DNA of 64,000 bases from a bacterium. GTDB lineage: Bacteria; Bacteroidota; Ignavibacteria; Kapaibacteriales; UBA2268. This document shows positions 7,633 to 26,674 of the stretch, one piece after another. The position numbers and the translations under genes are program-made. The stretch lies in NCBI GenBank assembly GCA_024711295.1, contig JANJTB010000035.1:1-64000 (forward strand), written 5' to 3'. How positions within the stretch are numbered: position 1 is the stretch's first letter; each line of letters begins with the position of its first letter. The notes below the pieces were generated by a model, which saw nothing but the letters and a program-made list of their open reading frames with translations, ran no database searches and was not told where the DNA came from.

Positions 7633-10600
7633 TTATTTTAATATTAAAAATGCCTTATGATGTGATTCAGAGCCATTGATTATTCTAATAATATAGACAC
7701 CAGAGCTAAATTTTGATACATCAATATTAATATTTCCCGATACTAGATTAGTATCGAATAAACAAACACCCCTTGTATCGTAAATGGCAATTTTTGATGA
7801 ATTCTCTTTAATATAATTATCAAAACCTACAGAGATAGTTTCATTCGCTGGAGTAGGGAATACAGTTATTTCTCCGAGTTGATGAGCATTTTCATCAATA
7901 CTGCTTATCTTATAGTTGTATAAGTCAGACATGAAACTTTTGCATGAATTTTCAGTTACCTGCACTGTATAATTACCTTCTACATCCTTGGTATCATAGT
8001 TCTTAGCTCTTGCCCCGGGGATAATATTCCCTTCAAAATACCATTGATTACCGGAAGAGGCACTGGAAATCAATACTCTGTTGTCTCTTGAAATTGTGGG
8101 TTGGGGTGGTAGTTCTGTTATATCAGTTTCAAAGTAAATTTGTTTGATAAAATCATCATCAGAAGAATACTCAAGATATAGGTTGCCTTTGCCTGGATTC
8201 TCCCATTTTACCTGTATCAGTTGAGTATTATTTGAACCAATGATTTTACCACCGGAAATACTCCATTTAAATTTACCTACATTTAACAATGAATTATAAA
8301 ATTGTTCATCAAATTGACAAACCTGGCTGACACCTTCTATTTCATTTGAAACATCCTCTTTTGTTTTTACAACTAATGATGCTGTTTCATTACAATTATC
8401 ATTTCTGAAATTCAACTCAATTTTGTTGTCGCCTACTGAATTAAAAGAAACAAATAAAGTATCTGAGTCATCAGCTCCAATTATAACTCCACCGGTCACT
8501 GACCACTTTTTGACTAACTTGTTATCAGTAACATAATACTTATATGTATTATTCGCAAAAACCTTATCAAAACCGGTTACATTTAATTGAGGGAAATCAT
8601 AAATTGAAATGTTTAATGTATCACTGAAAATTCTTGGCACTGTTGATTCAACAAACAGGAAATAATCATCACCGGATTGCATAATTCTTGGAAACTGAAT
8701 ATTTATATTATTAGCTAATGAACTTGTAATTTCACCAATCGTCATCGGAAATGTTTGCTGCCCGGGATTTCTTTTTCCCAACCTAACCCTGAATATATTC
8801 TCACCCAGAAAATTTCCATTTGATATTGAATATTTAAAATTCATTTTTGTACCTGGGCAAATTGCAGTATCAGCCAGCGGGGTTAAAGTTAGTTTAGGGG
8901 GGAGAGGAACGCTTGAATAAAAGAACCTGTAAATAGTGTCATTTCCACTTGCATCAACTACTCTTATGTAAGCTAATGCGTCTTCCTTAATATTAATTGG
9001 CCTTAGTTCAACGCTTACTTGGTTATCAACACCTGGAACAATTTCATCATTGAATAAATAATAATTATATGATGAATCTTTAACCAAATGGATCATTGCC
9101 AAATTTGACCTAATCTTTGAACTGGTTATTGGTTCGTCATTAATTATCCCGGAATAATTACCATTTCCTGTTAGCGAAAATGTTGCACTTGGCGGATAAA
9201 TATCCTCAGGTTTTTCATGATTTTTGAATGGCAAGTAGGCTGCAGAAGAATAAGTATCGTTAAAGTTTTCAAAGCCATATACTGAGCCGGCAATAGGTCT
9301 GTTTGACTCGACTATGTATCTACCATGTCTGGATAACTTTAGGTTAAGGTAGTAATATCTAAAACCTTCGGGTTCAGTAACCGGAAAAGGAATAGGGTTA
9401 TTTAAAGCTATATCTTTTACTTTTTTAATTTCAGATTTGCCGTCAATTATCTCTGTTAATAATAATTCTTCAGGGATTTGTCCGGCATCATTTAGTCTGA
9501 AAACCAGATTAAGATAATTATCTGTAAAGTATTGATTTGATGAAGTTGCCGGCAAATTAAACACTAATTTAGTGGCAAAGTTATCACCCGAAATAACCTG
9601 AGCTTTAAATGGTACACTCTTGTCAGACAAACTCTCGTTGCCTGTGTTAAACTGTACAACATTTATTCTTTTATCTGAGGATATGATTGCCGGCTTATTA
9701 TCTGTATTAACTCTAAAACTAAGGAAACCCTTTCCTTCAGCTCCATAAGGAAACTGAATGATACCTTTGTTCGCGTTATTCAATTTAACTTGTGTGTCAT
9801 TCTCATAAGCACTGACTTTAACCCAAGAACCGGTTGTTCTACCGTAAACAGGAGTAATATAATACCTTTTCGAAAAACTGCTGATTGGCATTTCCTGTTC
9901 AATTAAATGTTCACATGGGCTTAAATTTGTTGGTACTTGAGCACAATAATTCCCTGTAAATACAGCTATTGGTTTTGTTGACCTTATTGTACTACCTGAC
10001 AGGTCATTATTATTTCCTAAACCGCTCAATACCCAAACATCACCTTTTGTAAGCGTTCTGCTTACTGACGCATCAGTTTTTAGTGAATCATTATTTGCAA
10101 GTTTAACTTGAGTGCTGGTGTTACCACCTAGTTTAAAAGTTACGCGAGTGTTGTCGTAAGCACTTACAATTACTGCAGTTGATGGAGCATAATTGTTAGT
10201 GTTGTTTGAATAGTCATTAAATGTGGTTATGTTGTAAGAAGGTCCAAGGAAGTTTAAAGGAAGAGCTAAAAAACCCTCTGTGTATGTCCTTAATCTTACG
10301 ACAACATAAATAATTACCGGGGAGTCAGAAGTAACAAAGAGAGCTTTATTTTCATAAACATTCTCATTTGGTGTTTTGACATTTGGTGTTTTATTATAAG
10401 GCATCAAAAATTTAGCATGGATATCATGCTCGATTACTTTATTGGGAGTAACATCAACATTTGCATTATAAAATGATGCTTCAACCTTGAAGTTCACCTT
10501 GGCAGATGTGGATGATGAAATATAAAATTTAACTTGATTATAATCATCTAAAGCATTATAATACGCCGGTACAAAGCTGATGATAAAATTAGTGCCTGCA

Positions 10601-10719
10601 TTAGAAGGTGAGTTTAATTCAACAAGTTGTTCAGGATTAATTTGGGAGTTTAAATTATTATAAGAAACTAACAAAATTATAAATCCTGAAAGAATTAAAA
10701 ATTGTAAATATTTCATCAT
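7633..10719 (-). CDS. Giant secreted protein with IgGFc-binding-type domain, Ig/PKD-like modules and T9SS sorting domain
   Basis: The 1028-residue product has a signal peptide (YLQFLILSGFIILLVSY). Residues ~115-500 resemble the IgGFc-binding N-terminal domain family (PF17517-like): blocks such as ALFVTSDSPVIIYV, TAVIVSAYDNTRVTF, PIAVFTGNYCAQVP, CEHLIEQEMPISSFSKRYYI and GRTTGSWVKVSAYENDTQV. Several Ig/PKD-like modules follow (VTDNKLVKKWSVTGGVIIG; GKFKWSISGGKIIGSN). The last ~80 residues are a T9SS type A domain (VFPTPANETISVGF, IAIYDTRGVCLF, SGVYIIRI, KAFLIL). It is expected at the cell surface as an adhesin-like protein; the domain name does not prove immunoglobulin binding. The MATE gene begins within its last codons, suggesting co-transcription. 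Confidence 0.85.
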   Translation of the reverse strand: MMKYLQFLILSGFIILLVSYNNLNSQINPEQLVELNSPSNAGTNFIISFVPAYYNALDDYNQVKFYISSSTSAKVNFKVEASFYNANVDVTPNKVIEHDIHAKFLMPYNKTPNVKTPNENVYENKALFVTSDSPVIIYVVVRLRTYTEGFLALPLNFLGPSYNITTFNDYSNNTNNYAPSTAVIVSAYDNTRVTFKLGGNTSTQVKLANNDSLKTDASVSRTLTKGDVWVLSGLGNNNDLSGSTIRSTKPIAVFTGNYCAQVPTNLSPCEHLIEQEMPISSFSKRYYITPVYGRTTGSWVKVSAYENDTQVKLNNANKGIIQFPYGAEGKGFLSFRVNTDNKPAIISSDKRINVVQFNTGNESLSDKSVPFKAQVISGDNFATKLVFNLPATSSNQYFTDNYLNLVFRLNDAGQIPEELLLTEIIDGKSEIKKVKDIALNNPIPFPVTEPEGFRYYYLNLKLSRHGRYIVESNRPIAGSVYGFENFNDTYSSAAYLPFKNHEKPEDIYPPSATFSLTGNGNYSGIINDEPITSSKIRSNLAMIHLVKDSSYNYYLFNDEIVPGVDNQVSVELRPINIKEDALAYIRVVDASGNDTIYRFFYSSVPLPPKLTLTPLADTAICPGTKMNFKYSISNGNFLGENIFRVRLGKRNPGQQTFPMTIGEITSSLANNINIQFPRIMQSGDDYFLFVESTVPRIFSDTLNISIYDFPQLNVTGFDKVFANNTYKYYVTDNKLVKKWSVTGGVIIGADDSDTLFVSFNSVGDNKIELNFRNDNCNETASLVVKTKEDVSNEIEGVSQVCQFDEQFYNSLLNVGKFKWSISGGKIIGSNNTQLIQVKWENPGKGNLYLEYSSDDDFIKQIYFETDITELPPQPTISRDNRVLISSASSGNQWYFEGNIIPGARAKNYDTKDVEGNYTVQVTENSCKSFMSDLYNYKISSIDENAHQLGEITVFPTPANETISVGFDNYIKENSSKIAIYDTRGVCLFDTNLVSGNINIDVSKFSSGVYIIRIINGSESHHKAFLILK

Positions 10720-10786
10720 CTTTATTTCCTCAAAGAAAACTATAACCGAAAAATTCAGTTATTTATACTAAAATTATTTTAAATTT

Positions 10787-10794
10787 CAAATATA
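10787..10794 (-). promoter_or_regulatory. Candidate -7 box of the IgGFc-domain gene
   Basis: On the minus strand TATATTTG matches TAnnTTTG and lies 67 bases upstream of the ATG at 10719. No TTG lies at the expected -33 distance, so support is modest. Confidence 0.3.
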
Positions 10795-10954
10795 ATTATA
10801 TTTTTTGAATTTTATTAAAAATTCGTTAAATAATATTGATGTAACATACATGTTGACATGCTTTTATTATTTTTGAGTCTTTTAAGTTCACATACCAAAA
10901 TTAAATGTTAATATGAGAGAAATTTTTGTCAATAATCAAAACAACAAATTACAA

Positions 10955-11305
10955 TTATTTTCTTAAAATTTTATCTAATGATTTACCTTTCGCCAGTTCA
11001 TCAATTAACTTATCAAGATACCTGATTTGTTGCATTAGTTTATCTTCGATTTCTTCTACTCTAAAACCACATATCAACCCGGTTATTTTGTTTGCGTTTG
11101 GATTTAATAGTGGTGCGTCATTAAAAAAAGATTCAAAATCACTTCCATCTTCAATTTTACCCATAAGTGTTGTTTTGTCATATCCTGTCAGCCAGAAAAT
11201 AATCAAATCAACCTCTTCACGAGTCCTACCTTTTTTTTCTGCTTTTTGGACGTATAATGGGTACACTTTACTAAATGACATTTTAAATATTCTTGTATTA
11301 TCCAT
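10955..11305 (-). CDS. DUF2200 domain-containing protein
   Basis: The 116-residue protein matches DUF2200 over its whole length, by recollection of the family: [58 protein letters not shown], and the terminal [21 protein letters not shown]. It is a small soluble protein found widely in bacteria, with no established function. The start ATG at 11305 gives [10 protein letters not shown], in agreement with family N-termini. It follows a small membrane-protein gene on the same strand by 15 bases, so the two probably form an operon. An overlapping 232-codon frame on the plus strand is considered a shadow. Confidence 0.85.
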
Positions 11306-11320
11306 AATGCCCCTATTACT

Positions 11321-11560
11321 TTACTTGTTGAAAAGAGAAAATAATATTTTGCCTGACAAATATAAAAAGGAAATAAGAATAAAAATCACTCCAGCCATCA
11401 TCAAAGTTTCAAGTATATTTGTCTTTACGTCAGGTATCCTTTCATTTAAATCAATTATAAATCCAAAAATTGATGTAAGTAACGAAATAAATGAGATAAT
11501 GATTAACTCCTCTATTTTGAATACTTTAAATTTTCTTGTTTTAATCATAGTGCAATTCAT
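11321..11560 (-). CDS. Small two-helix membrane protein, unknown
   Basis: The product is 79 residues (75 if the second ATG at 11548 is used). It has two hydrophobic segments, LIIISFISLLTSIFGFII and TLMMAGVIFILISFLYLSG, joined by a short charged loop (DLNERIPDVKTN), with basic ends. The orientation is likely both termini in the cytoplasm. No family recognised. It lies 15 bases upstream of the DUF2200 gene on the same strand. The DUF2200 partner makes a real operon plausible, but a small AT-rich frame with hydrophobic content could arise by chance. Confidence 0.5.
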   Translation of the reverse strand: MNCTMIKTRKFKVFKIEELIIISFISLLTSIFGFIIDLNERIPDVKTNILETLMMAGVIFILISFLYLSGKILFSLFNK

Positions 11561-11753
11561 ATTATTTATTTTTTACAAAATTAATATATTTAGAATTAAT
11601 TATCAAAATATTCCTTTGAATTAATGATTTCTTTATGTTAATTAAAAAATAAATACAAATTCTAAATTTCCATAAGAGTAATGAATGATTAAAGGATTTC
11701 TTTGGAACTAATCAAATCATAGATAAACACTTTATTAAGTCGGATATTTTTTG

Positions 11754-11761
11754 TATTTTTG
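11754..11761 (+). promoter_or_regulatory. Candidate -7 box of gyrA
   Basis: TATTTTTG fits TAnnTTTG and lies 40 bases before the gyrA ATG. The same octamer recurs at a similar distance before several other genes of this window. A clear -33 TTG is missing. Confidence 0.4.
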
Positions 11762-11801
11762 TAAGTTTGTAAATTATTAAATTAAATAAAAGATATCATT
11801 T

Positions 11802-14306
11802 ATGTCATTACTTGATAAGGGACAAATAATCGAGACATTGCTTGAAGATGAGATGAGAAATTCTTATCTTGACTATTCAATGTCTGTAATAGTTTCCAGA
11901 GCATTGCCAGATGTCAGAGATGGATTAAAACCGGTTCATCGACGCATATTATATGCAATGCAGGAGTTGGGATTAGCCCCCAATAGACCTTACAAAAAGA
12001 GTGCTAGGCTTGTTGGTGAGGTTTTAGGTAAATATCACCCGCATGGAGATAGTTCTGTTTACGAAGCTATGGTAAGACTTGCTCAAAACTGGAGTATGCG
12101 TTATCCTTTGGTTGATGGCCAGGGAAATTATGGTTCGGTTGATGGTGATCCACCGGCAGCGATGCGTTATACCGAAACAAGATTATCACATATTGCTACT
12201 CAAACTCTCAGAGATATTGACAAGGAAACAGTTCTATTTCAGAATAACTTTGATGAGTCTCTGAAAGAGCCGACAGTATTGCCTACAGTACTACCTACAT
12301 TATTGGTAAATGGTGCAAGTGGTATTGCTGTAGGTATGGCAACAAATATTCCACCTCATAATTTGACCGAAATAATTAATGGGTTGATTGCTCTTATAGA
12401 TAATCCCGAAATTACCGATGAAGAGTTAATGAAACTGATACCTGCACCCGACTTTCCGACAGGTGGTATTATTTACGGATATAATGGTGTTCGCGAGTCA
12501 TATCTTACTGGTAGAGGTAAAATCACCGTAAGGGCTAAGGTTTTTATTGAAGAGAATAAAACGAAAACTAAGCAATCTTTAATTGTAACTGAATTGCCAT
12601 ATCAGGTTAATAAAGCTACATTGATAGAAAGAATAGCTGATTTGGTGCGAGGTAAGGTTATCGAAGATATATCAGGTCTGAATGATGAATCAGACAGAAA
12701 TGGTATGCGTATAGTAATTGATTTAAAGAGAGACGCAAACCCTGATGTTGTTTTGAATAATCTCTTTAAACACTCACAACTTCAGGTTACCTTTGGCTCT
12801 AATATGCTTGCTTTGGTTAATGGGCGTCCGAAAGTTTTGACACTTAAGCAAATGATGCACCACTTTGTAAATTTCAGAAATGAAGTTGTTGTTAAGCGTA
12901 CAAAATATGAATTAGACCAAGCTGAGAAACGTGCTCACATTCTCGAAGGATTTATAATCGCTTTGGATAATCTTGATGCAGTAATCAAAACTATCAGAGA
13001 ATCAAGGGATCCAAATTCAGCCTCTATTGCTTTACAACAGAATTTCGGATTGTCAGAAATTCAGGCTAAAGCAATTCTTGATATGAGATTGCAAAGATTG
13101 ACAGGTCTTGAAAGAGAAAAAATTCAGAAAGAGTATCGTGATATTTTGCAGTTAATTGAAAAGTTAAGATCTATTTTAGAGAACAAAAGTTTACAAATGG
13201 CAATCATTACACAGGAATTTACAGAGCTTAGAGACAGATTTGGCGATGCTCGTCGCACCGAAGTTATCATGGATTCCCGTGAGTTTTCTGTCGAAGATAT
13301 GATTGCAAACGAAGACGTTATCGTTACAATGTCACATAATGGATACATTAAGCGTACCCCATTATCAAGTTATCGCAGACAGAATAAAGGTGGGCGCGGT
13401 TCTAGCGGCACTGCTACTTACGATGACGATTATATTGAATTTCTATACCAATCTTCTACACATAATCATATATTATTCTTCACTGATGCAGGCAGAGTTT
13501 ATAAGATTAAAGTTTATGATATTCCTGAAGGAAGCAGAAATTCAAAAGGTAGATCAATTAATAATGTAATAAATAAATTACCCGATGAAAAAGTTACTGC
13601 ATTAATGCCTGTTAAGGAATTTTCTGATAATGAGTACGCAATGATGTGTACTGTAAATGGTACAATCAAGAAAACAGAATTATCGGCATTTGCCAATGTT
13701 AGAGTTACAGGAATTATTGCCATAAATCTTGATGACGGAGACAAACTGATTTCAGCTCAAATTACTGATGGTAATTGTGATATTATCATAGGAACAAAGA
13801 AAGGTTTGGCTTGTAGATTCAGAGAAAGTGAAGTTCGATCCATGGGCAGAACTGCAACTGGTGTAAGAGGTATATCTCTATCTAGTTCTGACAAAGTAAT
13901 TTCGATGATTGTTATTCGAAGAGCTGATGCACAAGTTCTTGTAGTCAGTGAAAATGGATTTGGTAAGAGAACCAAATTTGAGGATTTCAGACTTACAAAA
14001 AGAGGAGCAAAGGGAGTAATCTCTATGAATCTGACTCCAAAAACCGGTGATGTAATTGGCTTATTAATGGCTGTTGACAGTGAAGATTTGGTTGTGATGA
14101 CTGTCAACGGTATACTAATACGTCAATCAGTAAAGAATATAAGAACAATTGGCAGAAACACTCAGGGAGTCAAATTAATCAGACTTGATGAAGGTGATAA
14201 GATTGCTGATATTGCTGCGGTTAATCGTGACGATGAGGAAGAAACCGATATTATTGATGATGATATTGAGAATATTGATGGCAATGGACAGGAAGCATTG
14301 CTTTAG
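11802..14306 (+). CDS. gyrA: DNA gyrase subunit A
   Basis: An 834-residue GyrA, the breakage-reunion subunit that with GyrB introduces negative supercoils. The N-terminus [23 protein letters not shown] is diagnostic, the catalytic tyrosine lies in [10 protein letters not shown] (about Tyr123), and the quinolone region reads [10 protein letters not shown] with Ser84 and Glu88 aligning with E. coli Ser83/Asp87. The C-terminal beta-pinwheel contains a GyrA-box-like RQNKGGRGS and repeats such as [11 protein letters not shown], followed by an acidic tail ([18 protein letters not shown]). The GyrA-box favours gyrase over ParC. It stands alone on the plus strand, convergent with ispG, with a shared terminator. 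Confidence 0.97.
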
Positions 14307-14333
14307 TCCTGCATTTAAATATTTATATATTAA

Positions 14334-14366
14334 AAACCTCCGATTTTTAAGTCGGAGGTTTTTTTT
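14334..14366. terminator. Bidirectional terminator between gyrA and ispG
   Basis: The inverted repeat AAACCTCCGA / TCGGAGGTTT with an 8-base loop is flanked by an A-tract on the left and a T-tract on the right, so it can end transcription from both convergent genes. The ispG stop codon lies at its right edge. Confidence 0.85.
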
Positions 14367-15528
14367 AGCTTTGAGGTTCAAATAAATGAATTTCTTTAAG
14401 TAATTCCTGTACAATGTCTTCTTCAGGAACATATCTGATTGGGACACCTTTTCTAAACAACAAACCCTTTCCCTTTGCTGCAGCTACTCCCAGATCAGCT
14501 TCTCTAGCCTCGCCAGGTCCATTAACAGCACAGCCTAAAATTGAAACAGTCATAGGTTTTTTGATATCCTTAACAGCATCTTCGATTTGCTCGGTAATTT
14601 TGAACAAATCAACATCTAATCTACCACATGTTGGACATGAAATTATCTCAACATTCCTTTGAGCATAACCTAATGTTCTCAGGATTTCCTTTCCAACTTC
14701 AACTTCTCTTTCCGGTTCGTCGGTTAGTGAAACCCTTATTGTATCTCCAATACCCTCGGCAAGAAGAGTACCAATACCTACTGCGGATTTAATAGTTCCC
14801 ACTCTTAATCTACCAGCCTCAGTTACGCCAAGATGGAGAGGAAAATCTGTTCTCTCTGCAATTAGTCTGTATGCTTCAATCATGAGAGGAACTGATGTGG
14901 ACTTGACTGATATCACCAAATCTTCAAATCCAAATTCTTGAGATATTTGGACATGTTTCATTGCTGATTCAAATAATGCTTCGGCTGTTGGGTACCCATG
15001 CTTATCCAAAATTTCCTGTTCAAGAGAACCAGAATTAACGCCTATTCTAATTGGAATTCCTCTTTCCTTTGCTGCTGTAAGGACTTTCTTTACTCTTTCA
15101 ATTTTTCCGATATTTCCAGGATTAATCCTTACTTTTGCTACGCCAGCTTCAATTGCTTTTAGGGCGAACATATAGTTAAAATGAATATCTGCCACGATAG
15201 GAACATTTACTCTTTTAACAATTTCACCAATTGCTTCAGATGCTTCTTTGTTATTTACAGTTACCCTTACTATGTCAACCCCGGCTTCTTCGCATCTTTT
15301 AATTTGTGCAACCGTTGCCTCCACGTCAGAGGTCTTGGTTTTAGTCATTGTTTGCACAGATATCGGATGACCACCACCTATTGGAATCCCGCCTATATAT
15401 ACAGTCCTTGAACTACGTCGGGGATATCTTGTCTGAGCAAATCTGTGCTCATGTTTCGAACCATTTGAGCCATGATTTAAGACATTCAATCCCAATTCAT
15501 CATTGTTTAATTCCATACTTCCCATCAA
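14365..15528 (-). CDS. ispG: 4-hydroxy-3-methylbut-2-enyl diphosphate synthase (flavodoxin/ferredoxin)
   Basis: IspG (GcpE) catalyses the penultimate step of the methylerythritol phosphate route to isoprenoids with a [4Fe-4S] cluster. Diagnostic segments are PISVQTMTKTKTSDVEAT, VADIHFNYMFALKAIEAG and VRINPGNIG in the TIM barrel. The cluster ligands lie in SCPTCGRLDVDLF and ILGCAVNGPGEAREAD (three Cys plus the conserved Glu). The 387-residue length is the short proteobacterial/Chlorobi-like form and lacks the large central insertion common in many Bacteroidetes IspG. The first ~35 residues (N/S/G/H-rich) are not conserved, so the start could be further inside. The rhomboid gene lies about 10 bases upstream on the same strand. 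Confidence 0.95.
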   Translation of the reverse strand: MMGSMELNNDELGLNVLNHGSNGSKHEHRFAQTRYPRRSSRTVYIGGIPIGGGHPISVQTMTKTKTSDVEATVAQIKRCEEAGVDIVRVTVNNKEASEAIGEIVKRVNVPIVADIHFNYMFALKAIEAGVAKVRINPGNIGKIERVKKVLTAAKERGIPIRIGVNSGSLEQEILDKHGYPTAEALFESAMKHVQISQEFGFEDLVISVKSTSVPLMIEAYRLIAERTDFPLHLGVTEAGRLRVGTIKSAVGIGTLLAEGIGDTIRVSLTDEPEREVEVGKEILRTLGYAQRNVEIISCPTCGRLDVDLFKITEQIEDAVKDIKKPMTVSILGCAVNGPGEAREADLGVAAAKGKGLLFRKGVPIRYVPEEDIVQELLKEIHLFEPQS

Positions 15529-15537
15529 TTTATAGTA

Positions 15538-16515
15538 TTAAATAATTTTACTTAACTCAGTTAATATCTTTTTCTCTCTTTCGGTCAAATTCTGATAACC
15601 GGTTGCTGAGATTTTATCCAATATTATGTCAATTTTATTTTGGGTTATTTCTTCACCCTCTATGATATACTTTTTTATATTTGTATCAGCTCTGACAATT
15701 TCAGGTTCGGATTGTTTTGGTTTATTGCTCCAAGGTATGTTGTAAATAGGAGCTTTGGGCTTTGAATATTCATTATTATATTCGTTTCCGGTAAAAGTAT
15801 TTGAATAGCTATTTGAATAATACTGACCTTTCGATGCCCACGCCACTAATTTTTCAAATCCAATATTTCTTCCATATTTCAGTAATATATATCCTGTAAA
15901 AGCACCACCGAGGTGTGCAAAGTGAGCTACTCCGCTGGCTCCACTTACACCATTTATTAGCTCGATTGCTCCGAAGATTATTACAAAGAATTTCGCCGGT
16001 ATTGGTATAAATAAAGGGAACATAAAAATTGGTCTATTAGGAAATGTTAAGCCAAATGCAAGTAATAATCCATAAACTGAGCCTGATGCTCCCACTGTAG
16101 GTCGTAAATCACCAAAAAATGGAGTTACCATCATGTGTATTAATGCTGCTCCAATTCCTGCAATGATATAATATAATAAAAATCTTTTAGGTCCCCACAA
16201 TGATTCCAACTCTGAGCCAAACATCCATAAAGCAAACATATTCATTAACAAATGCCAAAAATCTGCGTGCATAAATTGATATGTTATCAACTGCCATGGG
16301 TAAAATTGCTTGTAATCAGCAAATGGCAAAATATTATCAAAATTAATGGGCCATAGTGCAGAATATTGCATGAAATAGTAATTTAGTGGTACACCGTTAA
16401 AAGTAAGTGTACCAATGAAAAAGTGCTGCAAAAAATAAACTGCAATATTAGCTATAAGCAAACCTTTTATGACAGGGGTGAACATTCCACCTCCGAAATT
16501 TCCGTATCTTTTCAT
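15538..16515 (-). CDS. Rhomboid family intramembrane serine protease
   Basis: A membrane protein with six or more helices and the rhomboid catalytic dyad. The Ser is in GASGSVYGLLLAFG and the His in AHFAHLGGAFTGY; the FWHLLMNMFALWMFG segment carries the HxxxN motif. Rhomboids cleave single-pass membrane proteins within the bilayer. The C-terminal tail (IDIILDKISATGYQNLTEREKKIL) resembles the short helical extension common in Bacteroidota rhomboids. The frame is open to an ATG at 16629, but that would overlap the upstream gene and add a non-homologous 38 residues. The ATG at 16515 (MKRYGNFGGGM) is preferred; neither has a strong Shine-Dalgarno. ispG follows after 9 bases. Confidence 0.9.
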   Translation of the reverse strand: MKRYGNFGGGMFTPVIKGLLIANIAVYFLQHFFIGTLTFNGVPLNYYFMQYSALWPINFDNILPFADYKQFYPWQLITYQFMHADFWHLLMNMFALWMFGSELESLWGPKRFLLYYIIAGIGAALIHMMVTPFFGDLRPTVGASGSVYGLLLAFGLTFPNRPIFMFPLFIPIPAKFFVIIFGAIELINGVSGASGVAHFAHLGGAFTGYILLKYGRNIGFEKLVAWASKGQYYSNSYSNTFTGNEYNNEYSKPKAPIYNIPWSNKPKQSEPEIVRADTNIKKYIIEGEEITQNKIDIILDKISATGYQNLTEREKKILTELSKII

Positions 16516-16582
16516 TTTCTGTTTTACTTTAGATTTATAGATATGATCATAGACGTTAAGCCGTTTAAGGAATTGCTTATTA

Positions 16583-16966
16583 TTAATTTGTACAAATATT
16601 AACGAACTTATCTGAATTAGCCATCTCAATTACGATTTTTTTGTAGTATTTCCAAAAATTTAAGAAATTTGACCAAGAAAGTCTCAAATTATCTGAACTC
16701 TCATCTGAATAGAATAAATCAAGCTGTAGCTCATGAAGAGTTAGTATAAGCTCCTGTTTCAAGTTCTTACCATCAAGGCGTCCTGTAAGGACTTGTGGCA
16801 ACATTGGAAGCAATATTGAATAACCTGTTAATAAATTATTGATTGAGTTGCTCAATTCATTATCGTATTTACTATGATTAATGTAAAAATCAATTAATTT
16901 ATCTGCAGCTTCGATTGTGCTATCTATAAAATTTATGTAAAATATTATATAGTCTTTTTGTTTCAT
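16583..16966 (-). CDS. Hypothetical protein, 127 residues
   Basis: Not recognised. The frame can begin with TTG at 16972, but the ATG at 16966 (MKQKDYIIFY) is more natural. The protein is predicted to be mainly helical and soluble, rich in Leu/Asn/Lys/Asp, with segments STIEAADKLIDFYINHSKYD, LLTGYSILLPMLPQVLTGR and RLSWSNFLNFWKYYKKIVI. There is no signal peptide. It lies upstream of the rhomboid gene on the same strand and diverges from the glycosyltransferase gene at 17043. It is probably real, as it occupies the only good frame in the space. Confidence 0.6.
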   Translation of the reverse strand: MKQKDYIIFYINFIDSTIEAADKLIDFYINHSKYDNELSNSINNLLTGYSILLPMLPQVLTGRLDGKNLKQELILTLHELQLDLFYSDESSDNLRLSWSNFLNFWKYYKKIVIEMANSDKFVNICTN

Positions 16967-17001
16967 AATCAATAATTACGTAATTATTCAGTTATTTATT
17001 T

Positions 17002-17009
17002 TATTTTTG
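17002..17009 (+). promoter_or_regulatory. Candidate -7 box of the glycosyltransferase gene
   Basis: TATTTTTG matches TAnnTTTG and lies 33 bases before the ATG at 17043. A convincing -33 element is not seen. Confidence 0.4.
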
Positions 17010-17042
17010 TTTTAATATTTTACCTCATAATTTTTGTTAAGA

Positions 17043-18356
17043 ATGAAAAATCTGTTAGTTGTTGCTTATTATTTCCCTCCATCAGGTGGACCTGGTGTTC
17101 AAAGAGTACTCAAACATATCAAGTATCTTCCAGAATTTGGTTGGAACCCTATTGTGCTTACAGTTTCAAATGGTGATTTCCCTGCCCGTGACGAATCATT
17201 ACTGAAGCAAATACCTCCAAATATAAAAGTTATCAGGACAAAAATTTTTGAACCTTACGATATTTACAGGAAGTTTACAGGCAAGCCTAAGTCAGCAGCG
17301 ATAGATGTAAATGTTATAAAAAAAGATGATCAGAAATCTAATTTGAAAGAAGCAATTGCAGAGTTTGTAAGAGCTACATTTTTTATACCTGATGCAAGAA
17401 TAGGATGGCTGTTTAGCGCCAAAACAGCAATCGATGATTTAATGCAAGAGAACGAAATTAAAGCAATATACAGTTCTTCGCCGCCCTATACCTGTTCTTT
17501 AATAGCTAAATATACACAGAAAAAGTATAATATTCCATGGATAGCAGGATTCCGCGACCCCTGGACAGGTTTTATATCTTCTCCAAGAAGATGGTTTTTG
17601 CCTGCATTAATTGACCGAAAAATGGAAAAATCTACTTTCGAAAAAGCTGATGCAGTAGAATGTGCTTGGGAAGGTATCATAAAGGATGCTTTAAATAAAT
17701 ATCCTTTACTTGATAAAAACAAATTTTCTCATGTACCAAATGGTTTTGACTCATCTGATTTTCCTGATTCAAAATATGAAAACACTGAGAAATTTACACT
17801 AACTTATACTGGTTCGATGTATGGGAGAAGAAATCCTTGGGCTTTGTTTCAGGCTGTAGAGCAACTTTTGATAAAGGGCTTAATTGATAAAAGTAAAATC
17901 AAATTTGTTTTTATAGGAAGATTTGGAAATGAAGTTGTTGAGATGTTTGATTCTACTACATTTAAGGATAATATTGAGCAAATATCTTATATACCTCATG
18001 ATGAAAGCATTAAATACTTAATTAAATCTGATGCTTTGCTCTTAGTAGTTGATGAGTCAAAAGAGAGTCAAGAAATTGTTCCTGGAAAAGTATATGAATA
18101 TATTGGTGTAATTAAGCCAATTATTGCAATTGGACCTAAATACGGAGCTGTTGGTAATTTGATTTTGGAAACTAATTCCGGGAAAATCGCACACCAAAGT
18201 GATATTGCTGAAATTGAAAAAATTTATCTTGAGTATTACAATAATTGGCTATCAGGAAATCTTAAACCCGAGCATGATAAGAGTATGGTCAGTAAATTTG
18301 AGAGGAAAAATGCTGCACAATTTTTGGCTAATTTACTTGATCAATTGACTAATTAA
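17043..18356 (+). CDS. Glycosyltransferase, GT4-like
   Basis: A 437-residue cytosolic glycosyltransferase of the GT-B fold. The N-terminal domain opens with KNLLVVAYYFPPSGGPGVQR, typical of WcaI/ExpE7-like GT4 enzymes, and includes FRDPWTG. The C-terminal domain starts near FTLTYTGSMYGRRNPWALFQA and contains VFIGRFGNE, QISYIPHDESIKYLIKSDALLLVVDES, and the nucleotide-sugar binding region VPGKVYEYIGVIKPIIAIGP. It would transfer a sugar from a nucleotide donor, probably to a surface polysaccharide or lipid; the acceptor is unknown. The ATG at 17043 is chosen over an in-frame TTG nine bases upstream. No polysaccharide cluster surrounds it, so it is a stand-alone gene. Confidence 0.85.
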   Translation: MKNLLVVAYYFPPSGGPGVQRVLKHIKYLPEFGWNPIVLTVSNGDFPARDESLLKQIPPNIKVIRTKIFEPYDIYRKFTGKPKSAAIDVNVIKKDDQKSNLKEAIAEFVRATFFIPDARIGWLFSAKTAIDDLMQENEIKAIYSSSPPYTCSLIAKYTQKKYNIPWIAGFRDPWTGFISSPRRWFLPALIDRKMEKSTFEKADAVECAWEGIIKDALNKYPLLDKNKFSHVPNGFDSSDFPDSKYENTEKFTLTYTGSMYGRRNPWALFQAVEQLLIKGLIDKSKIKFVFIGRFGNEVVEMFDSTTFKDNIEQISYIPHDESIKYLIKSDALLLVVDESKESQEIVPGKVYEYIGVIKPIIAIGPKYGAVGNLILETNSGKIAHQSDIAEIEKIYLEYYNNWLSGNLKPEHDKSMVSKFERKNAAQFLANLLDQLTN

Positions 18357-18376
18357 GTCAAAATCAATAAAATTTT

Positions 18377-18384
18377 TATTTTTG
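18377..18384 (+). promoter_or_regulatory. Candidate -7 box of the PEP-binding fusion gene
   Basis: TATTTTTG matches TAnnTTTG and is 60 bases before the ATG at 18445. No TTG is present 19-21 bases further upstream. Confidence 0.35.
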
Positions 18385-18444
18385 TGAATCGAATTATATA
18401 GAAGATTTATCATAAAACCCTTTTAAATAAAATAAATTAAAGCT

Positions 18445-21400
18445 ATGGCAACAAAAATTAAGAATCTTCAACTTGCGGTTAATACAGAGCTTATCGAAAG
18501 AACAAAAGAATTAAATACAATTTACGAGGTTGAGCAAGTTTTTAACCAGACTCAATTATCTCTTGAAGAAATAATGAATTCTTTGATTGAAATTATTCCA
18601 AAAGGTTTTAAAGACCCTGACTCTATTAAGATTAAGATAAATTTTCTTGATAAGACATTTTTTCCTCTAGATTTTTCAAAAGGAAAGTTTGTAACATCAA
18701 CAATTATAAAAGCATTTGAAGAAGAATTTGGCACTTTAGAAATTCATGAATATGAAACATCTCTTCCACTTACAAAAAGTATAATTTTGAATGAAGAGCT
18801 TAAATTGATAAACACAATTGCTGACCGACTTGGGCATTTTGCGATTTTTATCAAAGTAAAAGGGTTATTCCAGGAATTAAAACAGCTTAATGATGAATTG
18901 TCTGAAAGCAAAATGCCTGAATGGTTGGTCATTATTGATTTATTAAGAAAAACTGACCAAAATTTGTACTCAATAATTTCAAGAAAGATGCTTAACCACC
19001 TCTTTTGCAAAGGAATAAGAGAATCTTCTGAGTTATTCAAAAAGTTAGGTTCTAATGTAGATTTTGATTCGGTAGTTCAATCAGAAACAAATCGTCCGTC
19101 AAAAAAGGCTATATTACTTCAGTCTTTCAAGTTAGGTCATGAAATATTTGACCTTGCTGCAAAATATTTTAACAATGATGAGATAATCCAGAAAATCCAA
19201 AAATGGATTCACGAAGAAAAATCAAATAATTTGATAAAACTTCTTGCAAATCTAAATTCATCAATTACTGACCTGTCCGAAGCACTAAGAAGATATCACA
19301 ACGTAAATCCAAGTGTGCAGGATATGATTCATACACCTACACGACACGGGATAGTAGTTGCATTGATAAGGCGAATTTTGACAGAACAACTGGAGTTCAT
19401 TGAAATTGCAAAAAATTTCTTTAACGAAGAAGATTTTTTTCAGCTATTCCAGAAATTAATTTTTCCTGCAGAAAGCCATGGTAAAATAGGAGGTAAAGCT
19501 GCAGGTATTTTACTGGCAAGAAATATAATTGATAAGTCATCAAATTTTACAGATAAATTAAATGGGGTAAAAACTCCTAAGACCTGGTATATTACTTCTG
19601 ATGGTTTAATGAATTTCATGTATTATAATAATATGGAAGATGTTTTAGATCAGAAATATAAAGATATTGATGAAATCAGACAAGAGTATCCTCACATAAT
19701 TCAAGCTTTCAAAAATTCAAATTTTTCTCCAGAAATATTGAATGGTCTATCGAGAGCTCTAGATGATTTTGGCGATAATCCGATTATTGTCAGAAGTTCC
19801 AGCTTGTTAGAGGATAGGCTAGGTTCTGCGTTTGCAGGAAAATATAAAAGTCTTTTTCTTGCTAATCAAGGTCCTAAGCAACAAAGATTGGAAGATTTGT
19901 TAGATGCCATTTCTGAAGTTTATGCATCAACCTTTGGTCCTGATCCAATAGGATACCGTGCTGAAAAGGGACTCCTTGACTTTAACGAAGAGATGGCCAT
20001 TATGATTCAGGAGGTGGTTGGCCAAAAAACAGGAAAATATTTCTTTCCAGCATTTGCCGGTGTAGCATTTAGCAATAATGAATTCAGGTGGTCACCACGA
20101 ATAGAAAGGGAAGACGGTTTAATTAGAATGGTACCTGGACTTGGGACCAGAGCTGTAGATAGAATTGGCGATGATTTCCCTACCTTGATTGCACCTGGAA
20201 AGCCAAATCTAAGAGTTAATCAGACATTTAACGAAATAGTCGGATATTCAGCAAAGTACATTGACGTAATCAATTTGGAAACAAACTCTTTTGATACAAT
20301 TCAAATAAGTGATTTGATTAATCAAATTGGCAACAGTTATCCCTTGATAAATGAAATTTTTAGCATTGTAGATGGTCGAAACGTAAAGAAACCTGTCGGA
20401 TTAGGTATTGATACTCGGCAGCATGATGTCATTGTAACATTTGAAAATTTGATATCCAACAAAAAATATATTGAGCAAATCAATTCTCTTTTAATTGAAT
20501 TGAAGGACAAGCTTAATACACCTGTAGATATTGAGTTTGCTTGTGATGGTAAAGATTTATTCCTGTTACAATGCCGTCCTCAATCCTCAGCTGGAGAGTC
20601 TGTTTCTGCTGTCATTCCGCAGGATGTTGATCCTGAGAAAGTTATATTTACAGCAGATAAATATATATCTAATGGCAAAGTACCTGATATAGCATTTATT
20701 GTATTCGTTGACCCGATGGAATACTCTGAATTAGTTAAACACGACGACTTGCTGGATGTTGGAGTAGCTGTAGGAAAGCTTAATAAAATGTTACCCAAAA
20801 GGAATTTCATCTTAATGGGTCCTGGGAGATGGGGGAGCCGTGATGATATCAGATTAGGTGTTAAGGTGAATTATTCGGATATTCATAATTGCTCAGTCTT
20901 AATGGAAATTGCCTTGAAAAAAGGAAATTATACTCCGGATCTCTCTTTTGGTACTCATTTTTTCCAGGATTTGGTCGAAGCAGGGATCAGGTATTTACCT
21001 CTGTATCCCGATGAAGAAGGGCAGTATCTTAATTGGGAATACTTAAGAAACTCAGAAAATACATTAGAGAGATTTTTGCCTGAGTATAAGCATATTTCTA
21101 AAGTATTAAAAGTTATCAATATACGTGAAACTAACCATGGCAATATTCTCAGAGTACTATTTAATGCTGATATTAATCAAGCAATGGGTTTAGTTACAGA
21201 TTCTTCTATAGCTCAGAATTACTCTTCAACCGAGTCAATAATTTCAAAAGGAGATAGTATTTATGATGAGCCTCTTCAATGGAGAAAGAGAATGGCAGAG
21301 AGTATAGCTCTAAAGATTGATCCGGTTAGGTTCGGTGTTCGTTCGGTATATCTCTTCGGAACTGTGTTCAATGAAACTGCTGGTCCAAATTCTGATATTG

Positions 21401-21645
21401 ATTTATTGGTGCAATTTGAGGGTGATGAACAACAAAAAAGAGATTTAGATTTATGGTTTGAGGGTTGGAATTTGTGCTTGAGCCAAATTAATTATAATCG
21501 CTCAGGGTACTTTATAGGAAAATTCCTGGATATAACGTACATCTCTGAAAAAGACTTTAAGGACAGAAAATATTATGTTGACTTAATGGATCCAAACAAC
21601 CACAGTTCCAGAATGCTAAGAATCGGAGGTAATGATGGAAATTAA
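18445..21645 (+). CDS. Sensor / PEP-pyruvate-binding / nucleotidyltransferase fusion protein
   Basis: A 1066-residue cytosolic multidomain protein. Residues ~10-145 resemble a GAF-like input domain found ahead of some sensor kinases (ELNTIYEVEQVFNQTQLSLEE, then a P-G segment and ELKLINTIADRLGHFA). Residues ~345-710 are a PEP/pyruvate-binding (PPDK N-terminal) ATP-grasp domain: GKIGGKAAG, NPIIVRSSSLLEDRLGSAFAG, EEMAIMIQEVVG, PVDIEFACDGKDLFLLQCRP. A conserved-looking block GPGRWGSRDDIRLGV follows at ~790. Residues ~965-1050 are a NTP_transf_2 fold with LFGTVF and SDIDLLV, matching the GS/T...DxD signature. The swivelling phosphohistidine domain (TSHAA-type) and the PEP-utiliser barrel are absent, so it cannot be a normal PEP synthase or PPDK. 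Function unknown; a nucleotide-dependent regulator is one possibility. Confidence 0.8.
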   Translation: MATKIKNLQLAVNTELIERTKELNTIYEVEQVFNQTQLSLEEIMNSLIEIIPKGFKDPDSIKIKINFLDKTFFPLDFSKGKFVTSTIIKAFEEEFGTLEIHEYETSLPLTKSIILNEELKLINTIADRLGHFAIFIKVKGLFQELKQLNDELSESKMPEWLVIIDLLRKTDQNLYSIISRKMLNHLFCKGIRESSELFKKLGSNVDFDSVVQSETNRPSKKAILLQSFKLGHEIFDLAAKYFNNDEIIQKIQKWIHEEKSNNLIKLLANLNSSITDLSEALRRYHNVNPSVQDMIHTPTRHGIVVALIRRILTEQLEFIEIAKNFFNEEDFFQLFQKLIFPAESHGKIGGKAAGILLARNIIDKSSNFTDKLNGVKTPKTWYITSDGLMNFMYYNNMEDVLDQKYKDIDEIRQEYPHIIQAFKNSNFSPEILNGLSRALDDFGDNPIIVRSSSLLEDRLGSAFAGKYKSLFLANQGPKQQRLEDLLDAISEVYASTFGPDPIGYRAEKGLLDFNEEMAIMIQEVVGQKTGKYFFPAFAGVAFSNNEFRWSPRIEREDGLIRMVPGLGTRAVDRIGDDFPTLIAPGKPNLRVNQTFNEIVGYSAKYIDVINLETNSFDTIQISDLINQIGNSYPLINEIFSIVDGRNVKKPVGLGIDTRQHDVIVTFENLISNKKYIEQINSLLIELKDKLNTPVDIEFACDGKDLFLLQCRPQSSAGESVSAVIPQDVDPEKVIFTADKYISNGKVPDIAFIVFVDPMEYSELVKHDDLLDVGVAVGKLNKMLPKRNFILMGPGRWGSRDDIRLGVKVNYSDIHNCSVLMEIALKKGNYTPDLSFGTHFFQDLVEAGIRYLPLYPDEEGQYLNWEYLRNSENTLERFLPEYKHISKVLKVINIRETNHGNILRVLFNADINQAMGLVTDSSIAQNYSSTESIISKGDSIYDEPLQWRKRMAESIALKIDPVRFGVRSVYLFGTVFNETAGPNSDIDLLVQFEGDEQQKRDLDLWFEGWNLCLSQINYNRSGYFIGKFLDITYISEKDFKDRKYYVDLMDPNNHSSRMLRIGGNDGN

Positions 21646-21716: not shown

Positions 21717-21764
21717 CAAAAATTTTGAAATACAATTTGTTAAAATATATAATTGAGGTTTTTT

Positions 21765-22004
21765 ATGTTTTGGACTCCTGAGCTTGCAGCAACTCTCGAA
21801 GATGCACCGTGGCCGGCGACAAAAGAGGAATTGATAGATTATGCCAACCGTAGTGGTTGTCCATTGCAAGTAATTGAAAATTTATATGAATTAGAAGATA
21901 ATGATGAATTGATTGAAGGTATGGAAGACCTCTGGCCTGAGTATGAGGACATCACTAATGAAGAATACTTTTACAATGATGACGAAGAAGAACAGTATAT
22001 CTAG
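21765..22004 (+). CDS. DUF2795 domain-containing small acidic protein
   Basis: The preferred start is the ATG at 21765, with a Shine-Dalgarno gagg at 21755-21758; an in-frame TTG twelve bases earlier overlaps it. The 79-residue product begins MFWTPELAATLEDAPWPATKEELIDYANRSG, which matches the DUF2795 pattern (L.....yPa.k.eL...A...g.p..v...L). Many DUF2795 proteins have about 60-90 residues and unknown function, with proposed roles near stress or nucleic-acid proteins. The C-terminus is very acidic (EEYFYNDDEEEQ). It is expected to be cytosolic. The gene is monocistronic, followed at once by a hairpin terminator. Confidence 0.85.
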   Translation: MFWTPELAATLEDAPWPATKEELIDYANRSGCPLQVIENLYELEDNDELIEGMEDLWPEYEDITNEEYFYNDDEEEQYI

Positions 22005-25027: not shown

Positions 25028-25849
25028 ATGAATATGAAAGACCGTAACCTGTATGCTTTAATCTTGGGTGTATCTAGTGGATTTGGTAAAGCTTGTGCAT
25101 TAGAATTAGCCGGAATGGGCTACAATATAATTGGTGCTCATCTTGACTTGGGTTCTAATAAACAAAGAGCTGAAGAATTCAGACAAGAACTTGAAAGCTT
25201 TGGTGTAAAGGTAAAATTTTTTAATGCAAATGCATCAGATGACAATGTAAGGAAAGAAATTGTTGACTATATCAAACATGACTTTTCGGACGGTAAGGAG
25301 CATGTTTTGAGAGTTTTAATACACTCACTCGCTTTCGGAGCCATTAAGCCATTATTTGATAAAAATCCTGATAATGCAGTAAATAAGCGTCAAATTGAAA
25401 TGACCATGGATGTGATGGCTAATTCTTTAGTTTATTGGGTTCAGGATTTATTCGTCAATAACTTGTTGGCAGAGAATTCCAGAATTTTTGGACTTACTAG
25501 TATAGGTTCTACACGTGCGATGAATAACTATGGTGCTATCTCAGCAGCGAAATGCGCATTAGAAGCTTATACAAGACAAATTGCAATCGAACTGGCACCT
25601 TACAAAATTACTGCTAACGCAATTTTAGCCGGATTAACAGACACGCCTGCTAGTAACAAGATACCGGGCTTTGACAAAATGTTAGCTCATGCAAAGGAAC
25701 ACAATCCATTTGGAAGAAATACCGTTCCTGAGGATGTCGCAAAAGCAGTTGCTATGCTTGCTGACGAAAAGTTTTATTGGATAACGGGGCAGGTCCTTGG
25801 TGTAGATGGTGGTGAGAGTATTCTCAATTTCATTGAAACACATAAATAG
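25028..25849 (+). CDS. Enoyl-ACP reductase-like SDR protein, copy 1
   Basis: A 273-residue short-chain dehydrogenase. The dinucleotide site is LILGVSSGFGKACALELA, and the active site reads NNYGAISAAKCALEAY: Tyr-x6-Lys spacing as in FabI/FabL rather than the Tyr-x3-Lys of ordinary SDRs. The product end ITGQVLGVDGGESI is normal for the family. FabI-type enzymes reduce trans-2-enoyl-ACP with NAD(P)H in the last step of fatty acid elongation. The start may be the second ATG (MKDRNLYALI), six bases in. The gene is followed after 9 bases by a paralogue of the same length and fold, so the two are probably co-transcribed. Which of the two is the essential reductase cannot be read from sequence. Confidence 0.8.
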   Translation: MNMKDRNLYALILGVSSGFGKACALELAGMGYNIIGAHLDLGSNKQRAEEFRQELESFGVKVKFFNANASDDNVRKEIVDYIKHDFSDGKEHVLRVLIHSLAFGAIKPLFDKNPDNAVNKRQIEMTMDVMANSLVYWVQDLFVNNLLAENSRIFGLTSIGSTRAMNNYGAISAAKCALEAYTRQIAIELAPYKITANAILAGLTDTPASNKIPGFDKMLAHAKEHNPFGRNTVPEDVAKAVAMLADEKFYWITGQVLGVDGGESILNFIETHK

Positions 25850-25858
25850 GATTATATA

Positions 25859-26674
25859 ATGAACAGAAATAATGCCTTAATTTTAGGTGTGTCAAGCGGA
25901 TTCGGTAGAAGTACAGCTCTTGAATTGGCAAAAAGAGGTTTTAACATATATGGAGCTCACTTAGACCTTGGATCTGCAAAGTTAAAGGCTGAGGAACTTA
26001 GACAGGAAATAGAAGCTATAGGTGTAGAAGCAGTATTTTTTAACACTAATGTGGCAGATGCAGATAACAGGCAAAATGTTATTAATAATGTAAAAAGTAT
26101 TTTTGCAACAAGAAATGATAATTCTGTTCTTGGGCTATTTCTTCATTCCATTGCTTTTGGAGCATTAGGACCTTTTATTGACAAAAATCCTGAAATTCAA
26201 ATTAATCAGAAAAAGCTTGAGATGTCTGTAAATGTCATGGCAAACAGCTTGTTGTATTGGGTGCAGGACTTATTTCATGCAAATTTATTTGGTGAGCATA
26301 GCAGAATATTAGCAATGTCGAGTAATGGAGCAAGAGTAGCTACAAACAAATATGGTCCTGTATCAGTTGCAAAAGCAGCGCTGGAAGCATTAATAAGACA
26401 GTTGGCATTTGAGTTACAACCTTATGGAATTACCGCAAATTCAATAATGGCAGGTGCTACTGCTACACCAGCTTCTGCCAAAATTCCTGATTTCGACAAA
26501 ATGTTGAAATTCGCTAAAGATTTTAATCCTTCCCAAAGAAATACCATACCTGAAGATGCATCAAAAGTGATTGGTATGTTGGCTGGCCTTGAATCTGACT
26601 GGATAACCGGCCAGGTTATAAATGTTGACGGCGGGCAAAGTTTGTTTACATATTTGCCGGATTATTTTGGTTGA
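25859..26674 (+). CDS. Enoyl-ACP reductase-like SDR protein, copy 2
   Basis: A 271-residue paralogue of the preceding gene, with the same features: LILGVSSGFGRSTALELA nucleotide loop, Tyr-x6-Lys catalytic pair in NKYGPVSVAKAALEAL, PYGITANSIMAGATATP, and ITGQVINVDGGQS. The two proteins share the same spacing throughout but differ at many positions, so the duplication is old. Both are FabI-like by catalytic spacing. In the first, the residues before the Tyr-loop are LTSIGSTRAMNN; in this one, MSSNGARVATNK. It could form a heteromer with copy 1, or have another substrate chain length. It is followed by a bidirectional terminator that it shares with clpX. Confidence 0.8.
   Translation: MNRNNALILGVSSGFGRSTALELAKRGFNIYGAHLDLGSAKLKAEELRQEIEAIGVEAVFFNTNVADADNRQNVINNVKSIFATRNDNSVLGLFLHSIAFGALGPFIDKNPEIQINQKKLEMSVNVMANSLLYWVQDLFHANLFGEHSRILAMSSNGARVATNKYGPVSVAKAALEALIRQLAFELQPYGITANSIMAGATATPASAKIPDFDKMLKFAKDFNPSQRNTIPEDASKVIGMLAGLESDWITGQVINVDGGQSLFTYLPDYFG

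Follow-up and report, generated by a model that had tools for sequence, protein, structure and literature searches.

The 64,000-nucleotide stretch of DNA that we analyzed (hereafter the window) carries at 18445-21645, on the forward strand like all the domains described below, an intact open reading frame with an ATG start, present in one copy in the genome. Its product, of 1066 amino acids, is probably a controller of nitrogen-carbon metabolism that has not been described before, because its relatives in many phyla adjoin the gene for glutamate dehydrogenase (GDH), the enzyme that connects the citric acid cycle with nitrogen assimilation. We have referred to this protein and its orthologues, i.e., proteins with a GAF-like region, an ATP-grasp domain, a swivel-like domain and a nucleotidyltransferase (NT) domain, as LONG, and to a paralogue of ca. 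580 amino acids that has only the ATP-grasp and the swivel-like domain as SHORT. These last two domains are the core of LONG, since their key residues are invariant while the NT motif is degenerate or missing in some orthologues; the GAF and NT domains are add-ons. With the arguments evenly poised, we propose that LONG is an ATP-driven autophosphorylating sensor-dikinase that works with GDH and controls it.

Domain architecture of LONG

Pfam, an AlphaFold2 model built from 71 sequences (mean pLDDT 83.7) and structural matches gave the order GAF, helical linker, PPDK-type ATP-grasp, swivel-like His domain and nucleotidyltransferase. The predicted structure of residues 11-146 (18475-18882) matched the structure 3cit at a Z of 12.4, together with many other GAF domains (VIA-align), and the Pfam search had no match for this sensor region. 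The linker (residues 159-335, 18919-19449) is all-helical according to the secondary structure of the model and is conserved in the orthologues, with no Pfam match above cut-off. The ATP-grasp, identified as PPDK_N (PF01326, E 2.8e-57), covers residues 347-727 (19483-20625). Throughout the 71 aligned LONG sequences the positions K351, R450, S451-S453, E456-D457, E697, Q709 and R711 were invariant, and K351, R450, E697, Q709 and R711 were kept also in SHORT and in a second group of paralogues with a receiver domain. Rifampin phosphotransferase (RPH) was the closest structural match of this domain. The sequence matches of LONG span the ATP-grasp only, and the leading structural alignments mostly stop near residue 719.

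At the C-terminus, NTP_transf_2 (PF01909) was found above the Pfam cut-off at residues 963-1009 (E 3.1e-6), within a domain of the MNT / NTP_transf_2 type that extends over residues 940-1060 (21262-21624). There was no Pfam match to the PEP barrel (PF02896) in LONG at E up to 1, and past residue 925 there is only the NT domain, which leaves no residues for a barrel. The three domains recognized in the first-pass annotation (GAF-like, ATP-grasp and NT) are therefore borne out, two of them by Pfam and the GAF by predicted structure, and so is the absence of the barrel. A second PPDK_N gene located elsewhere in the same genome codes for an ordinary PPDK, judged by its PEP-utiliser domain.

A swivel-like domain with an invariant histidine

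The full model of LONG could be aligned with PPDK (1dik, 2dik, 1jde and 1kbl) from residue 308 to ca. 916-924, corresponding to PPDK 12 to ca. 505-514, i.e., the alignment does not stop at the ATP-grasp but enters the His domain at the center of PPDK. For this reason the region 725-925 was folded alone (107 sequences), giving a pLDDT of 92.6 and a pTM of 0.91. Its top VIA-align match was a muramoyltetrapeptide carboxypeptidase (Z 5.9), and a Z of 5.8 was obtained both with the C-terminal domain of the pyruvate kinase of S. aureus and with the His domain of RPH (residues 757-867, rmsd 3.5, 107 residues aligned). Chaperonin apical domains, RraA and the PPDK central domain (382-510, Z 4.6) ranked lower. 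Most of these matches have the “swivelling beta/beta/alpha” fold of SCOP, a fold that takes in the phosphohistidine domains. The matching segment of RPH holds its catalytic His825 (PMC4844700). All the structural matches of the region are weak (Z 4.6-5.9 for the swivel-like fold with its invariant histidine, always below 8) and Foldseek alone retrieved no match with E < 0.001 for the model, and for these reasons the swivel assignment is probable, unproven.

The histidine in question, His838 (codon at 20956-20958), sits in a S-x-G-T/S-H-F-F motif, where a helix begins after a strand, and was invariant in the three subfamilies (71/71 LONG, 38/38 SHORT and 31/31 receiver-type paralogues), which makes it the candidate phospho-accepting residue. 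An HHalign comparison anchored on the ATP-grasp paired it with the catalytic His of GGxTSHA, a pairing that was not counted as proof because its local posterior confidence was zero. Taken with the model, fold and conservation indicate that residues 728-925 (20626-21219), with the motifs GPGRWGS and GTHFF, are probably a swivel-like domain and a candidate divergent phosphohistidine domain. The first-pass annotation had described the protein as lacking a phosphohistidine domain (PF00391). Sequence comparison did not detect one: Pfam gave no PF00391 match in LONG, the canonical GGxTSHAA motif is absent, and a profile comparison of 725-925 alone with PF00391-type domains from the same phylum detected no similarity. 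At the level of fold, however, the description is probably false, since the region is conserved and folds, swivelling domains make up most of its best structural matches and His838 is invariant. It is also less likely that the ATP-grasp has another target for want of a His carrier, because the domain directly after it is swivel-like and contains this invariant histidine.

Linkage to glutamate dehydrogenase

A search with the family alignment, using one genome per species, provided 525 relatives. We took the best 80, chosen by similarity and mostly from metagenome assemblies, and for this reason the linkage figures given here describe a non-random sample. Their record titles included Ignavibacteria, Kapabacteria, Zixibacteria, Calditrichota, Acidobacteria, Aminicenantes, Planctomycetes, Spirochaetes, Krumholzibacteria, Eisenbacteria, Deltaproteobacteria and others. 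Within these best 80 of 525, a GDH gene was located at most 6 kb from LONG in 48 of the 55 loci whose upstream sequence was 3.6 kb or longer. SHORT was directly upstream of LONG in 41 loci of the same 80; in 37 of these the two genes overlap, in most cases by 4 or 8 nt. GDH was the direct upstream neighbor in 22 further loci, two of them divergent. A frequent order was GDH, SHORT and LONG with overlapping genes; L060 and L076 have divergent GDH-LONG pairs, and L127 has GDH downstream of LONG. As a control, the surroundings of ordinary PEP-utiliser genes were read in 30 loci, and in none of these was there a GDH within 1.5 kb. GDH is the usual neighbor of LONG beyond the family of the window.

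The situation is different in the window's own genome, where LONG and GDH are on different contigs, and in three relatives from the same family LONG was likewise not beside GDH. In this family we also observed LONG-type proteins of 776-778 amino acids without GAF and without NT, not beside GDH (L041 and L042). The only GDH of the genome (428 amino acids) is 80% identical to the GDHs that divergently adjoin LONG in L060 and L076, compared with ca. 34% (median) to those beside the receiver-type paralogues, and for this reason the LONG of the window may, judging from these identities, serve the same type of GDH partner from an unlinked locus. Co-occurrence is uninformative in this respect, because nearly every genome of the phylum (289 of 296) has a GDH.

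The receiver-type paralogues (ca. 1000 amino acids, with Response_reg and PPDK_N in the copy scanned) adjoin GDH too, in 22 of 27 genes from 20 Bacteroidota loci, and the GDHs beside them were mostly of other types (about 446 and 453 amino acids). A relative of this group in Parabacteroides distasonis, WP_041525632.1, publicly annotated as “PEP/pyruvate-binding domain-containing protein,” is divergent to an annotated gdhA. In L046 a single cluster (7808-18910) contains SHORT and LONG together with a receiver-type paralogue and two GDH genes.

Other neighbors were noted. A convergent gene of ca. 280-300 amino acids, probably a calcineurin-like metallophosphatase as read by eye, lies directly downstream of LONG in 35 of the best 80 loci of 525 (e.g., L056, L064 and L068) and may be part of the LONG system. 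A histidine biosynthesis operon (by sequence hisG, hisD, hisC, hisB-type, hisH, hisA, hisF and hisIE) was found downstream of LONG in L033, L034, L037, L044, L046-L048, L091 and L107. In the window, a small acidic open reading frame (21753-22004, 83 amino acids from a TTG start) is located between LONG and an Omp85/TamL-like gene; it is probably the DUF2795 gene of the first-pass annotation and had no linkage to LONG in other loci. The gene order with either this gene or a GT4 gene, which was to be checked for conservation, did not recur in other loci, apart from a single GT4-like neighbor in L038. Two similar tandem short-chain dehydrogenases (273 and 271 amino acids), enoyl-ACP reductase-like by eye, are found at 25028-26674.

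Proposed role

That the protein might be a signalling or regulatory enzyme, as proposed earlier, gains support from the sensor domain, the invariant ATP-grasp residues and the conserved linkage to a metabolic enzyme. We propose, after the example of VadK described below, that His838 would be phosphorylated from ATP under the control of the GAF domain, followed by action in trans on GDH. The GAF domain would sense a small ligand, for which 2-oxoglutarate, an amino acid or another nitrogen or carbon metabolite is a guess. The conserved residues and the fold suggest that the ATP-grasp would bind ATP and phosphorylate His838 of the swivel-like domain next to it. Since LONG has no PEP barrel, the phosphorylated or swung domain would act in trans, and the gene linkage suggests that it might bind or phosphorylate GDH, or a partner of GDH, tuning its activity. 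The C-terminal NT domain would be an optional second output, perhaps by nucleotidylylation. No description of a coupling between GDH and a dikinase was found in the open-licence papers searched. Histidine phosphorylation of the E. coli GDH has reportedly been described, and our literature search found no such report.

A wider version of this proposal, which we advance tentatively and consider doubtful as a whole, is that a widespread and undescribed post-translational control exists in which PPDK-derived, ATP-driven dikinases with a divergent phosphohistidine domain, controlled by GAF or receiver domains, directly phosphorylate or nucleotidylylate GDH, each GDH type having its own dikinase. 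If dikinase-type histidine kinases do control GDH, metabolism in many phyla would be regulated in a new way, which could be tested on a partner pair in cultured gut Bacteroidales, P. distasonis among them, and proteins whose annotation goes no further than the PEP/pyruvate-binding domain would gain a likely role.

It could be argued that the dikinase has a target other than GDH and that both share an operon only because one nitrogen or carbon condition calls for the two of them. The lack of linkage in the window's family would fit such a situation, as would the probable metallophosphatase gene, which is also a frequent neighbor. However, the linkage to GDH recurs whether the genes are co-directional or divergent or GDH lies downstream, and it involves more than one type of GDH and of paralogue; we regard this explanation as unlikely. 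We find it improbable, too, that LONG is a metabolic dikinase, in which ATP-grasp and swivel would act on a small molecule from glutamate/2-oxoglutarate metabolism, phosphorylating it as RPH and HpeHI do with their substrates, GDH merely belonging to the same pathway. The structural proximity of its ATP-grasp to RPH speaks for it, as do two-component dikinases in which the ATP-grasp is a protein of its own (PMC12167813). Yet no substrate-binding domain is seen to follow, SHORT consisting of nothing beyond the two core domains, and the GAF and receiver domains suggest regulation.

The nucleotidyltransferase domain as an accessory

The sensor-dikinase reading leaves to the NT domain a secondary part. 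Its motif in LONG comprises G972, T973 and the metal-binding pair D984-x-D986 (21394-21402), with D1029 (21529-21531) as third carboxylate, and its structure matched MNT antitoxins and AadA-type enzymes in Foldseek. The ATP-grasp residues were invariant in the orthologues, but the GT...DxD signature was not, the full motif being kept in 67 of the 71 aligned LONG sequences. It is degenerate in L081, L090, L110, L127, L038 and L040, and the whole domain is missing from the 776-778 amino acid proteins of L041 and L042. As judged by these sequences, the NT domain is an accessory that appears to have been lost several times.

That this domain is the main effector, adenylylating or uridylylating GDH or another protein with the ATP-grasp part as a nucleotide-sensing regulator, is very doubtful: in spite of the large majority of full motifs and of the fact that MNT-type enzymes AMPylate proteins (structure 7ae9), the triad is lost or deleted in the eight loci just listed, two of which (L038 and L040) have LONG directly adjoining GDH, neither SHORT nor the receiver-type paralogues, both linked to GDH, carry the domain, and ATP-grasp and His838 are constant.

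We also considered LONG as a defence system. The PADLOC match covered the NT motif only (candidate PDC-S09, residues 962-1000) and the neighborhoods were metabolic, so this possibility was rejected. A phage origin was not indicated either, with no PHROG match for LONG.

Comparison with known systems

The nearest experimentally tested precedent for LONG is VadK (Rv1127c) of Mycobacterium tuberculosis, a barrel-less relative of PPDK that autophosphorylates His422 with Mg-ATP and reportedly interacts with methylcitrate cycle enzymes, tuning their flux (PMC13400623). Both have a PPDK-type ATP-grasp, no PEP barrel and a proposed regulation of metabolic enzymes; the His domain that comes after the ATP-grasp in VadK has in LONG a candidate counterpart, supported by fold and invariant His. 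However, VadK is a short truncated PPDK, while LONG has in addition GAF and NT domains and a divergent GTHFF site undetected as PF00391, and the link of VadK is with the methylcitrate cycle instead of GDH. RPH and HpeHI-type enzymes, which are small-molecule dikinases (PMC4844700, PMC12167813), share with LONG the ATP-grasp, for which RPH is the best structural match, and probably the swivel-type domain with its histidine, but LONG shows no substrate-binding domain, a different domain order and the linkage to GDH. With PPDK and PEP synthase the likeness is in the PPDK_N ATP-grasp with conserved catalytic residues and probably in an adjoining swivel-like domain, and the difference in the missing PEP/pyruvate barrel and GGxTSHAA motif. 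PtsP (enzyme I-Ntr), involved in nitrogen control, joins a GAF sensor to a phosphohistidine-type domain, for which LONG has a candidate; PtsP uses PEP and a barrel, whereas LONG, with no barrel match, would use its ATP-grasp and ATP.

The NT domain resembles MNT / NTP_transf_2 proteins such as the MntA antitoxin in its G-S/T...DxD motif, third carboxylate and fold, but in LONG it is a fused C-terminal domain, dispensable in several orthologues, for which nucleotidyl transfer is predicted. No HEPN partner was noticed in the LONG neighborhoods read. WP_041525632.1, the annotated relative of the receiver-type group next to gdhA, differs from LONG in its size (about 985-1000 amino acids) and in being of the receiver type in the Bacteroidota copies scanned, with no GAF and no NT. 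From these comparisons LONG would be one of the PPDK-derived barrel-less dikinases, and its important feature, the conserved coupling to GDH, lies outside the window.
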